Shown here: positions 29,057 through 31,559 of the stretch, one piece after another
How positions within the stretch are numbered: position 1 is the first letter of the stretch
Layout of the letters: the number at the start of each line of letters is the position of its first letter
Source: Oscillospiraceae bacterium
Lineage (GTDB): Bacteria > Bacillota > Clostridia > Oscillospirales > Ruminococcaceae
NCBI GenBank assembly: GCA_017829005.1
Contig: JAGAJF010000113.1
Location: 1-34,202 of the forward strand
Direction: 5' to 3'
Length of the DNA stretch: 34,202 bases
Notes under the pieces: model-generated
The model's input: only the letters and a program-made list of their open reading frames with translations
Told to the model about the DNA's origin: nothing
Databases searched by the model: none
Position numbers and translations under genes: made by a program

Positions 29057-29986
29057 ATGAAGGTTTATAAGAAGATCACCGACCTTATCGGTCACACACC
29101 CCTGCTGGAGCTTGAGAATATCGAGAAGGAGGAAAAGCTTGAGGCTAAAATTTATGCAAAGCTCGAGTATTTCAATCCCGCAGGCAGCGTTAAGGACAGA
29201 ATTGCCAAGGCTATGCTGGAAGATGCCGAGGCTAAGGGCGTTTTGAAGCCCGGCAGCACCATTATCGAGCCTACAAGCGGAAATACGGGCATCGGTCTTG
29301 CTTCGGCAGCTGCGGCTAAAGGCTACAAGCTCATTATCGCAATGCCCGAGACCATGAGCGTGGAGCGCAGAAAGCTTATGAAGGCATACGGCGCTGAGCT
29401 TGTCCTCACCGAGGGCGCAAAGGGTATGAAGGGCGCTATTGCTAAGGCTGAGGAGCTTGCAAAGGAAATTCCAAACAGCTTTATTCCCTCTCAGTTCTCA
29501 AATCCCGCTAACCCTGCGGCTCACGAGAAATCTACAGGCGTTGAGATATGGGACGACACCGACGGTACTGTTGATATTTTCGTTGCAGGCGTCGGCACAG
29601 GCGGTACTATCTCGGGTACTGGAAAATATCTGAAATCCAAAAATCCCAATGTTAAGGTAGTTGCTGTTGAGCCTGCTTCATCTCCCGTTCTTTCCAAGGG
29701 TACGGCAGGTCCTCACAAAATTCAGGGCATCGGTGCAGGCTTTGTTCCCGACACTCTTGATACTAAAATTTATGATGAAATACTCCCTGTTGAGAATGAT
29801 GACGCTTTTGAGACAGGCAGAAGAATTGCCAAGACTGAGGGCGTTCTGGTTGGCATTTCCTCGGGTGCGGCTCTTTATGCGGCTATACAGCTTGCTAAGC
29901 GCCCCGAAAACAAAGGCAAGACCATTGTTGCTCTTCTCCCCGACACAGGCGAGAGATATCTTTCTACGGCTATGTTCTCGGAATAA
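29057..29986 (+). CDS. cysK: Cysteine synthase (O-acetylserine sulfhydrylase)
   Basis: This 309-residue PLP enzyme makes cysteine from O-acetylserine and sulfide. The PLP lysine is K46 in [14 protein letters not shown]. The [10 protein letters not shown] loop and the phosphate-binding [16 protein letters not shown] are present, as is GISSGAA near the C-terminus. GAAAGGCGG precedes the ATG. No serine acetyltransferase gene is adjacent. The promoter for the downstream antisense RNA overlaps the end of the gene. Confidence 0.97.
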
Positions 29987-29989
29987 GGC

Positions 29990-30018
29990 TTGACAAATTT
30001 ATAGTTTTATGCTATACT
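29990..30018 (+). promoter_or_regulatory. Promoter of the antisense (antitoxin-like) RNA
   Basis: TTGACA (29990-29995), a 17-nt spacer and TATACT (30013-30018). No open reading frame follows, only a terminated RNA of about 105 nt. Confidence 0.85.
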
Positions 30019-30024
30019 AAAAAC

Positions 30025-30130
30025 AAAGAAGCAGCCAAATAGACGGCGTGCCTCCAAGAACAGATTATGTCTCTAACGTAATGTTAGAAATGACCGCTCA
30101 AGGTTGCGACTTGGGCGGTCAGTCTTTTTT
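30025..30130 (+). ncRNA. Antisense RNA, type I antitoxin-like
   Basis: This predicted RNA of about 106 nt starts just after the promoter at 29990-30018. It contains a small stem-loop TCTAAC-GTAAT-GTTAGA (30072-30088) and ends in a strong terminator, TGACCGCTCAAG (30091-30102) paired with 30110-30121, followed by TTTTTT (30125-30130). Its 3' end is complementary to the stop codon and last lysine codons of the small peptide gene on the minus strand. It therefore fits an antitoxin that pairs with the toxin mRNA 3' region, as in RatA/txpA-type systems. Ends are inferred from signals only. Confidence 0.7.
30091..30130 (+). terminator. Terminator of the antisense RNA
   Basis: This 12-bp stem (one G-T pair), 7-nt loop and TTTTTT tract overlaps the 3' end of the peptide gene on the other strand. 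The T-run is the complement of that gene's two AAA lysine codons. Confidence 0.88.
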
Positions 30131-30217
30131 ATTGCGTCTGTAATTCAGAATATCTATGATAAGGCGTATTACTTCAACGACAAGCGTTGACAACGCACAT
30201 ATTTCGAGTATCGTCAT
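30119..30217 (-). CDS. 32-residue holin-like/TxpA-type small membrane peptide, putative type I toxin
   Basis: This short open frame starts MTILEICALSTLVVEVIRL and ends with a positively charged RRNKKD tail, after one hydrophobic helix (about residues 3-24). E15, R18 and D22 fall on one helical face, making it amphipathic. AGGAGGTG (30227-30234) lies 9 nt before the ATG. A perfect promoter lies at 30323-30351, and the leader can pair CCTCTTTCC with the Shine-Dalgarno region. Size, hydrophobic core and basic tail match small type I toxins of Firmicutes that insert in the membrane. The convergent antisense RNA supports this. Toxicity is inferred, not shown. Confidence 0.72.
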   Translation of the reverse strand: MTILEICALSTLVVEVIRLIIDILNYRRNKKD

Positions 30218-30228
30218 ATACGTCTGCA

Positions 30229-30265
30229 CCTCCTTTCCCATGGAGATTTTGCAAGTGGAAAGAGG
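30229..30265 (-). promoter_or_regulatory. Hairpin sequestering the toxin-like gene's ribosome binding site
   Basis: On the minus strand CCTCTTTCC (complement of 30257-30265) can pair with GGAAAGGAGG (complement of 30229-30238) with a single bulged G, burying the Shine-Dalgarno. Such occlusion is common in type I toxin mRNAs. Confidence 0.55.
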
Positions 30266-30322
30266 AGACATCACCGCCTACCGTAATGGCTGCTTCAATG
30301 TGATACAATATGTACCGAGTTT

Positions 30323-30351
30323 ATTATACATTATCCGACATTATATGTCAA
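30323..30351 (-). promoter_or_regulatory. Consensus promoter of the toxin-like gene
   Basis: TTGACA (reverse complement of 30346-30351), a 17-nt spacer and TATAAT (30323-30328), a perfect match, giving a leader of about 100 nt before the peptide start. Confidence 0.9.
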
Positions 30352-30368
30352 TTACAATTCGGTTACAA

Positions 30369-30695
30369 TCATTTCCTTTTCGGCTTCTTTGGCTTCGGCT
30401 CGGGCAATTCATCGTACATTTCGGTGAAAAGCTGTGTAAGAAGCTCTCTGTTATCCGTATCCTCCACAAGCAGCATGGGCTTTGCGCCATCGTATGGCGG
30501 CTCCATGGCTGCACCGGGAAGAAGCTTTTTTGCCGCATTTACGGGCTTTACAAGAAGCCTGTCATCGCATAAATATGCGGCTATCTTTCCGTGATAATAA
30601 ACGATATATTCGCCCATCATTGATTTGTATGTGATATCCTCAAGTCCCGAAAGGCTGTCCAGGATATATTCGAGATAAGTCTTGCTTGTTGACAT
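30369..30695 (-). CDS. TfoX N-terminal domain protein
   Basis: This 108-residue protein has the TfoX-N core: LSGLEDITYKSMMGEYIVYY, then GKIAAYLCDDRLLVKPVNAA, and the conserved PYDGAKPMLLVED. The C-terminal TfoX helix-hairpin-helix domain is absent and a Lys/Pro-rich tail replaces it. TfoX-N domains occur in competence regulators of Gram-negatives, but the stand-alone version in Firmicutes has no settled role. AAAGGAGAG precedes the ATG. It lies 12 nt after the YkvA-like gene and is the last gene of that operon. Confidence 0.88.
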   Translation of the reverse strand: MSTSKTYLEYILDSLSGLEDITYKSMMGEYIVYYHGKIAAYLCDDRLLVKPVNAAKKLLPGAAMEPPYDGAKPMLLVEDTDNRELLTQLFTEMYDELPEPKPKKPKRK

Positions 30696-30707
30696 AAACG
30701 CTCTCCT

Positions 30708-31559
30708 TTACAGAATTGCCTTAACGATAAGCCCGATAATTATCAGCCATATGATTATTATAGGCAGAGAATAATACCACCGCTTTTTGGGCGACACTCT
30801 GCCCTCGGCGGCTTTTTTTGCGCATTCCGCCAGCACGTCATTTGGGATCAGCTTTACAGCTATGGCGATAAGTCCCGAAAGGATAAGCACATCGTCAAGG
30901 TAGCCCAGAACGGGGATAAAATCGGGAATAAGGTCAATGGGGGACAGGGCATAGCCGAGAGCTGCTCCTGCCGCTATTTTTGCCGCAAGTGGCGTGTCCT
31001 TGTGACCGAGAGCTAAGAAAACTGCGGGGATATAGTCTTTGAGGATAGCCGCACGCTGTTTCAGGGTGAGCTTATCGTTTATGGCTTCACCGAATTCCTC
31101 CCAAACGGCGGTTATGTGGGAGCAGGCAAATTTAATGTGATACCACTTCCGCTCATCGTCTTCGATGTTTATTTCCGCCAAAAGCTCATATCCTCCGTCA
31201 CATTCCTGCACCGTGAGTGAGAAAATATCCATATCTCCGCCGCCGCAAAGCCGTTTCTCAAGTGCGGAAAGCTCGCTTTTGTAAAGCTGCCTGTCCTTAT
31301 TTGTTCTGACGGCATTGTCCTTGACGTTAAAGACAGATATTCCGTGAAGAAGGGCGTTTTTTATACGGAAGTCCGAAAGGGTGAGCCATAGCTTCGGAAT
31401 ATGGCATTTTTTTCCCGTATTATTTCCCGGGGCGTTCTGTTCGGCGGTGCAGCCCGAAATGCAGATAACAAGGTCTTTTTCGTTTATCCGAACGGAGCTT
31501 ATGTCGGAATGTGTAAAATCAAAATAGTTTATCTCGGTATTTTCGGAGGAGTATTTCAT
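30708..31559 (-). CDS. YkvA/DUF1232-domain membrane protein with unknown N-terminal domain
   Basis: This 283-residue protein has an N-terminal beta-rich region of about 150 residues that I do not recognise. The DUF1232 (YkvA) core follows, LAAKIAAGAALGYALSPIDLIPDFIPVLGYLDD (split over about 194-226), with the invariant SPIDLIPD-IP-LGYLDD motif, then a hydrophobic stretch and a C-terminal membrane helix (about 261-283). The function of DUF1232 proteins is unknown. Its ATG overlaps the stop of the ATP-grasp gene by 4 nt (ATGA), so translation is coupled. Confidence 0.85.
   Translation of the reverse strand: MKYSSENTEINYFDFTHSDISSVRINEKDLVICISGCTAEQNAPGNNTGKKCHIPKLWLTLSDFRIKNALLHGISVFNVKDNAVRTNKDRQLYKSELSALEKRLCGGGDMDIFSLTVQECDGGYELLAEINIEDDERKWYHIKFACSHITAVWEEFGEAINDKLTLKQRAAILKDYIPAVFLALGHKDTPLAAKIAAGAALGYALSPIDLIPDFIPVLGYLDDVLILSGLIAIAVKLIPNDVLAECAKKAAEGRVSPKKRWYYSLPIIIIWLIIIGLIVKAIL

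Follow-up and report, generated by a model that had tools for sequence, protein, structure and literature searches.

The window analysed here, a stretch of 34,202 nucleotides (contig JAGAJF010000113.1, assembly GCA_017829005.1) from an Oscillospiraceae bacterium of the family Ruminococcaceae, contains between cysK and the TfoX operon a small locus that resembles a type I toxin-antitoxin pair. A preliminary description of the sequence had reported at positions 29990-30351 a 32-codon membrane-type peptide gene with a perfect TTGACA-17-TATAAT promoter and, facing it, a TTGACA-17-TATACT promoter followed by a strong terminator. The peptide gene, here called the toxin gene, and both promoters were found at these places (Table 1), the facing promoter matching the consensus at 11 of 12 positions. 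All these elements lie inside the bounds first proposed, but the conserved unit extends to position 30368 because of a 17-bp box.

As had been claimed, the antisense terminator has a T-run complementary to the AAA-AAA lysine codons of the toxin gene. The antisense RNA overlaps the last toxin codons and the 3' untranslated region. Folding suggests a terminator belonging to the toxin mRNA itself (30055-30019), where this mRNA probably ends, and therefore the overlap probably spans the whole antisense RNA; the initial statement of an overlap at the 3' end holds for the last codons and is probably too narrow for the rest. For the facing RNA, first described as ORF-less, the frame list contains two plus-strand frames (30048-30143 and 30104-30190), which extend beyond the antisense terminator. 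In the region 29500-30900, the scan counted 10 promoter-like and 6 terminator-like sites, where shuffled sequences have 2.6 ± 1.7 and 1.2 ± 1.2, respectively.

Table 1. Features of the putative toxin-antitoxin locus, in window coordinates.
Feature	Position	Strand	Basis
Putative toxin open reading frame (ORF), 32 codons/32 amino acids, ATG start, MTILEICALSTLVVEVIRLIIDILNYRRNKKD	30119-30217	minus	ORF list, relatives, dN/dS
Toxin promoter TTGACA-17-TATAAT (12/12)	30323-30351	minus	promoter scan
Ribosome site AAGGAGGTG	30227-30235	minus	sequence
Ribosome-binding arm GGGAAAGGAGGTG, predicted partner of the anti-Shine-Dalgarno (anti-SD) strand	30227-30239	minus	predicted fold
Anti-SD strand CTCCTCTTTCC	30257-30267	minus	predicted fold
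Leader-tail clamp, 5' strand, GAAGCAGCC ... GGTAGGCGGTGATGTCTCC	30264-30296	minus	pairing and folding
3' end of the toxin mRNA: probable terminator hairpin with T-run (-14.2 kcal/mol, predicted), also the 3' clamp strand	30019-30055	minus	folding
Antisense promoter TTGACA-17-TATACT (11/12)	29990-30018	plus	promoter scan
Antisense RNA, predicted (antitoxin; length about 105 nt, start deduced from the promoter)	30025-30130	plus	scan and alignment
Antisense 5' head GAAGCAGCC...GACGGCGTGCCTCC, repeating the toxin mRNA leader	30028-30055	plus	alignment, exact match
Second antisense hairpin TCTAAC-GTAAT-GTTAGA	30072-30088	plus	sequence
Antisense terminator over the last toxin codons (stem 30091-30121, then T-run)	30091-30130	plus	terminator scan
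Direct-repeat box of WalR/OmpR type, TTGTAACCGAATTGTAA, abutting the toxin -35	30352-30368	minus	exact match

The pair had been presented as unannotated, and no library searched names the peptide or the RNA above its cut-off. With Rfam, only tRNAs reached the gathering score in the window and no RNA family did so at the locus; one sub-threshold hit, ctRNA_pGA1 (16.5 bits against 45, E 1.1), is at chance level. The window peptide gave nothing in Pfam even at E 10, one match far under the cut-off in NCBIfam, none in PADLOC, phrog_16891 (function unknown) at E 0.1 in PHROGs, and only chance matches (E 0.52) among solved structures. No description of such a peptide/antisense family was found in the literature searched, subscription papers being outside its scope.

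Copies of the unit, coding constraint and decay

The whole unit, of approximately 380 bp, is repeated in the genus, where it was detected at 13 places in 5 of 20 genomes; among the 41 sampled genomes that lie outside the genus, none has the peptide unit. The alignment of the 13 copies reveals that the entire unit is conserved in the 12 copies besides that of the window, which carries more weight than the counts of promoter-like and terminator-like sites. The toxin promoter is perfect (12/12) in 10 of the 12 copies having upstream sequence and the antisense promoter matches at least 11/12 in all 12 copies having downstream sequence. The peptide, both promoters, the ribosome site and the antisense terminator are kept together, as the conservation check proposed in the preliminary description had asked.

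The ratio of nonsynonymous to synonymous substitution rates (dN/dS) is about 0.25 (median 0.24, 45 pairs, 10 ORFs) for 10 of the 13 places, after exclusion of L004 (identical), L009 and L011. Among 32 codons, the variable columns number 15, 2 and 17 at codon positions 1, 2 and 3, respectively. The peptide is under purifying selection, with a codon pattern that keeps both coding and hydrophobicity. The charged residues E15, R18 and D22, first noted on one face of the helix, correspond to an acid at position 15, R18 and an acid at position 22; all 11 distinct full-length peptides retain these three as well as E5. For the best 18-mer, the window peptide has a hydrophobic moment of 0.51, against 0.29 in L005 and 0.22 in BsrG, hence a high amphipathicity is not uniform.

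Three copies are altered. In L010 (genome G004) the ORF and the ribosome site are intact, the toxin promoter is lost (best 9/12) and the antisense promoter scores 11/12. In L011 (G002), which by eye occupies the same site as L010, the toxin promoter, the ribosome site and the start codon are lost and the antisense promoter again scores 11/12. Finally, in L009 the toxin promoter scores 12/12, and none of the ribosome-site spellings on the list used is present. The converse loss, with the antisense gene gone and the toxin kept, was not seen among the 12 copies with downstream sequence. Loss of the toxin with retention of the antidote is the asymmetry expected of a toxin-antitoxin pair. A broken frame beside a retained RNA, which had initially been set down as speaking against the locus, does occur in one of the 13 places (L011), and this loss on the toxin side fits such a pair. 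Both L010 and L011 also carry, at the expected place of the toxin promoter, an outward-facing perfect promoter (TTGACA-17-TATAAT, by eye) and a GC-rich inverted repeat, perhaps the remains of another unit.

Concerning the host genome, five peptide matches were detected. Two of them, L003 and L004 (contigs C16 and C100 of G000), are contig ends that share exactly 141 bp and are thus one locus; their flanks are both flanks of a tandem pair in G010 (compared by eye). The genome of the window has at least four loci. As the assembly breaks inside the repeat with this 141-bp overlap, further tandem copies may hide in gaps and the copy number may be underestimated. Apparent shared sites between species, judged from the flanks by eye, are L006/L007, L003/L004 with L008, and L010/L011. 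Six loci are in named records, all Oscillospiraceae metagenome-assembled genomes or uncultured Ruminococcus sp. The position in the window is not common to relatives, since no peptide was found beside any of 12 TfoX-like loci in other genomes of the genus; cysK was also absent from their vicinity, and the TfoX-DUF1232 pair is kept in four of them. A prophage or plasmid addiction module, or a mobile or phage origin, was considered and is unsupported: the window peptide had no match in the viral_contigs, phages or plasmids collections, and a relative from genome G405 had none in the phages collection.

Leader-tail pairing and the wider group

The sequence GAAGCAGCC occurs both in the toxin leader (30288-30296, minus) and in the antisense head (30028-30036, plus). 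Since the antisense head repeats the leader and is itself complementary to the mRNA tail, the leader and the tail of one and the same mRNA are complementary. This clamp, the toxin's own probable terminator, the multi-copy nature of the unit and the WalR-type box are features beyond the preliminary description.

A looser profile recovered related peptides in other genera, and a scripted search collected the convergent-promoter units around such peptides. From 33 scripted units, one with a wrong ORF and three alternative promoters of kept copies were removed, leaving 29 rows, which represent 28 distinct units because L036_14 and L036_15 are one copy. This set holds 7 of the 13 places of the genus, the others having escaped the script because of contig ends, the spelling of the ribosome site or the loss of promoters. 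The energy of the leader-tail pairing was reached by none of 200 shuffles in 28 of the 29 rows and by one of 200 in the last row. When the tails were permuted among 9 or 12 subfamily representatives, none of 200,000 permutations reached the natural sum with either set; among 5 representatives, 838 of 100,000 matched the natural order, which is the floor for 5! orders. Leader and tail thus co-vary from one subfamily to another. For the 8 sequences of the genus, pairing is retained in 96.2% of cells, and both sides have changed in 4 of 50 pairs (reached by 17 of 500 shuffles); pair types are no more numerous than in shuffles (455 of 500).

When the mRNAs are folded, the expected number of leader-tail pairs is 16 to 34 across the 29 rows. 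In 26 of the 28 distinct units the tail forms a predicted hairpin (-8 to -20 kcal/mol) with a T-rich end, and the folding suggests that the tail of the clamp is probably also the toxin terminator. When the part covered by the antisense RNA was masked, the predicted pairs between leader and ribosome site increased in 24 of the 29 rows and decreased in one (23 and one of the 28 distinct units); with shuffled tails, they increased in 21 of the 28 units and decreased in two.

To obtain a test free of layout bias, 28 loci were chosen by peptide score only, from 28 of the 35 other matching genomes; about nine of the loci belong to the scripted set as well. An antisense promoter is present in 26 of them, with its -10 located 81-101 nt past the stop codon and with a perfect score (12/12) in 24 of the 26; both promoters are found in 22 of the 28. 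The leader-tail pairing was not reached by any of 100 shuffles in 22 of the 26 loci with an antisense promoter. In the family-level sample, 37 of 396 genomes, spread over 16 of 126 genera, have matches at E ≤ 0.005; the weakest of these matches may be due to chance. In the class-level sample, 7 of 391 genomes match, two inside the family and five outside, the latter weakly and by peptide only.

Some units form head-to-tail arrays about 300-330 bp apart (L058 in G254, L036 in G391, L099 in G382). Genome G405 (L054, L055; L052, L053) encodes peptides of 45-46 amino acids (..LLVDVVHVTFDI..KKK), in tandem at one site and with the antisense promoter 120-127 nt past the stop codon. By their sequences these peptides look like a further branch of the group; they were excluded from the clamp counts.

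The WalR-type box and comparison with known systems

The box TTGTAACCGAATTGTAA fits the consensus TGTWAH-N5-TGTWAH, as given for WalR in PMC9210968. In four genomes of the genus (G000, G002, G004, G010), it was detected at 24 places with at most one mismatch, nine of them at copies of the unit, and the reversed pattern gave no match in the same genomes. Others are located before genes for an OmpR-type regulator (PF00486 matched; the receiver domain is unmatched, the sequence being cut), for an M50 peptidase and for proteins that look secreted or like lipoproteins, or at a greater distance from the gene of an HD-domain protein. Most toxin promoters of the genus carry the box, L005 being without it, and in its strict form it occurs in none of the 22 rows that lie outside the subfamily of the genus. 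From the motif we infer that a WalR-like regulator may bind the box. Its presence at toxin promoters and before other genes outlines a possible envelope-stress regulon of the genus. The window contains a second exact match to TGTAAY-N5-TGTAAY (TGTAATATTTGTGTAAT, 14872, plus strand).

Among known systems, bsrG/SR4 from the Bacillus subtilis prophage SPbeta is similar in its small hydrophobic peptide with an M-T/S-x-x-E start and a lysine end (by eye), in an antisense RNA overlapping the 3' end of the mRNA and, when bsrG of phage SPBc2 was folded, in a predicted long 5'-3' helix directly before the ribosome-site hairpin. According to passages of a review (PMC6562991), SR4 contacts the 3' part of the bsrG helix P1, and the sequestering helix grows from 4 to 8 bp once SR4 is bound. 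The modelled increase in leader:ribosome-site pairs when the bsrG tail is masked, from 2.0 to 5.3, agrees with these passages. In contrast with the present locus, where the clamp tail is the likely terminator (26/28), bsrG has a separate, downstream terminator hairpin; the libraries used detected no sequence similarity between the two, and a WalR-type box and multi-copy chromosomal sites are found here. The probable fusion of terminator, clamp and antisense head and a putative operator specific to the genus are the distinctive traits of the locus.

The B. subtilis pairs txpA/RatA and bsrE/SR5 share an antisense RNA of about 100-140 nt that is convergent and overlaps the 3' end, and a ribosome site hidden by 4-5 GC pairs, as described in parts of PMC6562991 and PMC3531473. 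They differ in that the relevant passages of PMC6562991 report no conformational change on antisense binding, and their sequences are unrelated by the searches made, the loci being compared by description. The putative holin-like toxins Hol_Tox (PF16935) are also short hydrophobic peptides, but the window peptide has no match to this family at E 10 and its relatives from other subfamilies remain below the gathering cut-off of 23.3 (best E 0.069, 13.5 bits). The CD2517.1/RCd8-type pairs of Clostridioides difficile are convergent type I pairs of a clostridial genome, whereas their toxins, compared by description, have 50-53 amino acids in the part of PMC6563280 concerned. Finally, hok/Sok and the Helicobacter aapA/IsoA pair also have a long-distance 5'-3' interaction in the toxin mRNA, which, in the account given in sections of PMC6733600, hides the ribosome site and needs 3' processing for its removal. 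In contrast, in the present locus a local hairpin is predicted to hide the site and the clamp to weaken this hairpin. A hok-like reading, where the clamp itself hides the ribosome site, was rejected on the grounds that the modelled pairing of the site is local and rises without the tail. Activation by 3' trimming was also discarded, as modelled removal of 50 nt leaves the site closed (median unpaired 0.24 to 0.22).

Interpretation of the locus

At the sequence level, the locus combines a constrained hydrophobic peptide gene, preceded by a ribosome site, with an antisense gene possessing its own promoter and terminator, as in type I systems. In prediction it also has the arrangement of the BsrG/SR4 subgroup, a 5'-3' helix before a ribosome-site hairpin that becomes longer when the tail is covered. 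We regard it as very probable that this is a type I toxin-antitoxin locus of BsrG/SR4 (TxpA-like) design, present on the chromosome in several copies, and it most likely represents a new BsrG-like family. The convergent 3'-overlap reading already proposed is strengthened by the joint conservation of the elements and by the bsrG-like predicted fold, and the suggestion of a new subfamily gains from the fact that no family model scores above its cut-off.

In the proposed mechanism, the toxin promoter would produce an mRNA of about 300 nt for a hydrophobic helix of 32 amino acids that bears an acid-Arg-acid stripe, is basic at one end and probably acts at the membrane. The convergent promoter would produce an antisense RNA of about 105 nt able to pair with the mRNA up to its 3' end, the last codons included. 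The mRNA tail would act first as a terminator hairpin, then as a clamp onto the 5' leader, adjoining the local hairpin that is predicted to hide the ribosome site. As the leader copies the 5' end of the antisense RNA, the two would compete for the tail. If the antisense RNA wins, a duplex would form (an RNase III substrate by analogy) and the anti-SD strand of the leader, freed from the tail, could form a longer helix over the ribosome site. If the antisense RNA is short or toxin transcription increases, translation would become possible; in the genus, this increase probably occurs via a regulator of WalR/OmpR type. The anatomy, conservation, coding constraint and leader-tail coevolution on which this scheme is built can be read from the sequences themselves; its folds and its switch are predictions, and we infer the transcription, toxicity, neutralisation and regulator.

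Several observations weigh against this interpretation. A membrane peptide does not usually carry charged residues inside its helix, as this one does. The outer 9-bp helix of the clamp is invariant in the subfamily of the genus and hence uninformative, and the predicted bsrG clamp is only modestly above its own shuffles (27 of 500 reach its duplex energy). Among the loci chosen by peptide, the pairing is weak or absent in L092, L106, L111 and L112 (5, 34, 1 and 3 of 100 shuffles, respectively), and in three of these four no leader promoter was found. Masking and shuffling of the tail both remove a competing pairing, so that the modelled increase is partly built in. The ribosome site is mostly paired in all modelled states (median unpaired 0.24, 0.22 and 0.22), and the modelled switch therefore alters the pairing partner more than the exposure of the site.

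Among the other explanations, it is unlikely that the gene encodes a functional membrane or regulatory peptide, non-toxic at natural levels, such as an envelope-stress effector controlled by a WalR-type regulator, whose dose is tuned by the antisense RNA. The conserved charged stripe and the presence of a WalR-consensus box both at the toxin promoter in nine places and before the genes of an OmpR-type regulator, an M50 peptidase and others are in its favour, but the layout and the predicted fold match those of bsrG, a proven toxin mRNA according to the passages of PMC6562991, and the box is lacking in L005 and, in strict form, in every row outside the subfamily. Quite unlikely as well is the idea that the leader-tail match is the footprint of an inverted duplication under gene conversion, the clamp having no role in an otherwise ordinary toxin-antitoxin pair. 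In its favour, both RNAs start with the same head, invariant in the genus. However, self-complementary hairpin inserts are one-sided (in the leader of L005 and L008, in the tail of L006, L007 and L013), G-U pairs and compensated changes preserve pairing and not identity, and other genera show the clamp with different letters.

A small non-autonomous mobile repeat, similar to a miniature inverted-repeat transposable element, whose inverted ends merely resemble promoters would account for the multiple copies, the inverted TTGACA near both ends and the tandem copies in G010; against the coding constraint on the peptide, the 12/12 promoters with a fixed 17-bp spacing and the apparent sharing of sites between species, it is very improbable. 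A chance ORF between genes with spurious promoters has a negligible probability: short ORFs are common (93 of at least 20 amino acids in 6.5 kb), but the conservation of the unit in 12 other copies and of the layout in other genera refutes it.

Beyond the preferred toxin-antitoxin reading, a broader proposal can be put forward, which we hold as tentative and rather doubtful. Such loci may form a so far unrecorded class of envelope-stress-triggered type I toxins, found family-wide in Ruminococcaceae-type gut bacteria, in which a segment of about 28 bp would serve at once as toxin terminator, 3' half of the mRNA clamp and 5' head of the antisense RNA. The leader would be a built-in decoy copy of the antitoxin that lets the mRNA compete in cis against the antisense RNA, and in the genus a WalR-like regulator would fire the toxin for the control of cell-wall stress and not for addiction. 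The decoy leader and the WalR-type box are both open to direct and simple tests. The coevolution of leader and tail across subfamilies provides comparative evidence that the 5'-3' clamp, previously a single known structure in bsrG, is a selected and general feature. The peptides of the wider group, detected in 37 of 396 genomes of the family and unnamed in the libraries searched, would make short toxin genes a common and overlooked part of the genomes of gut commensals.
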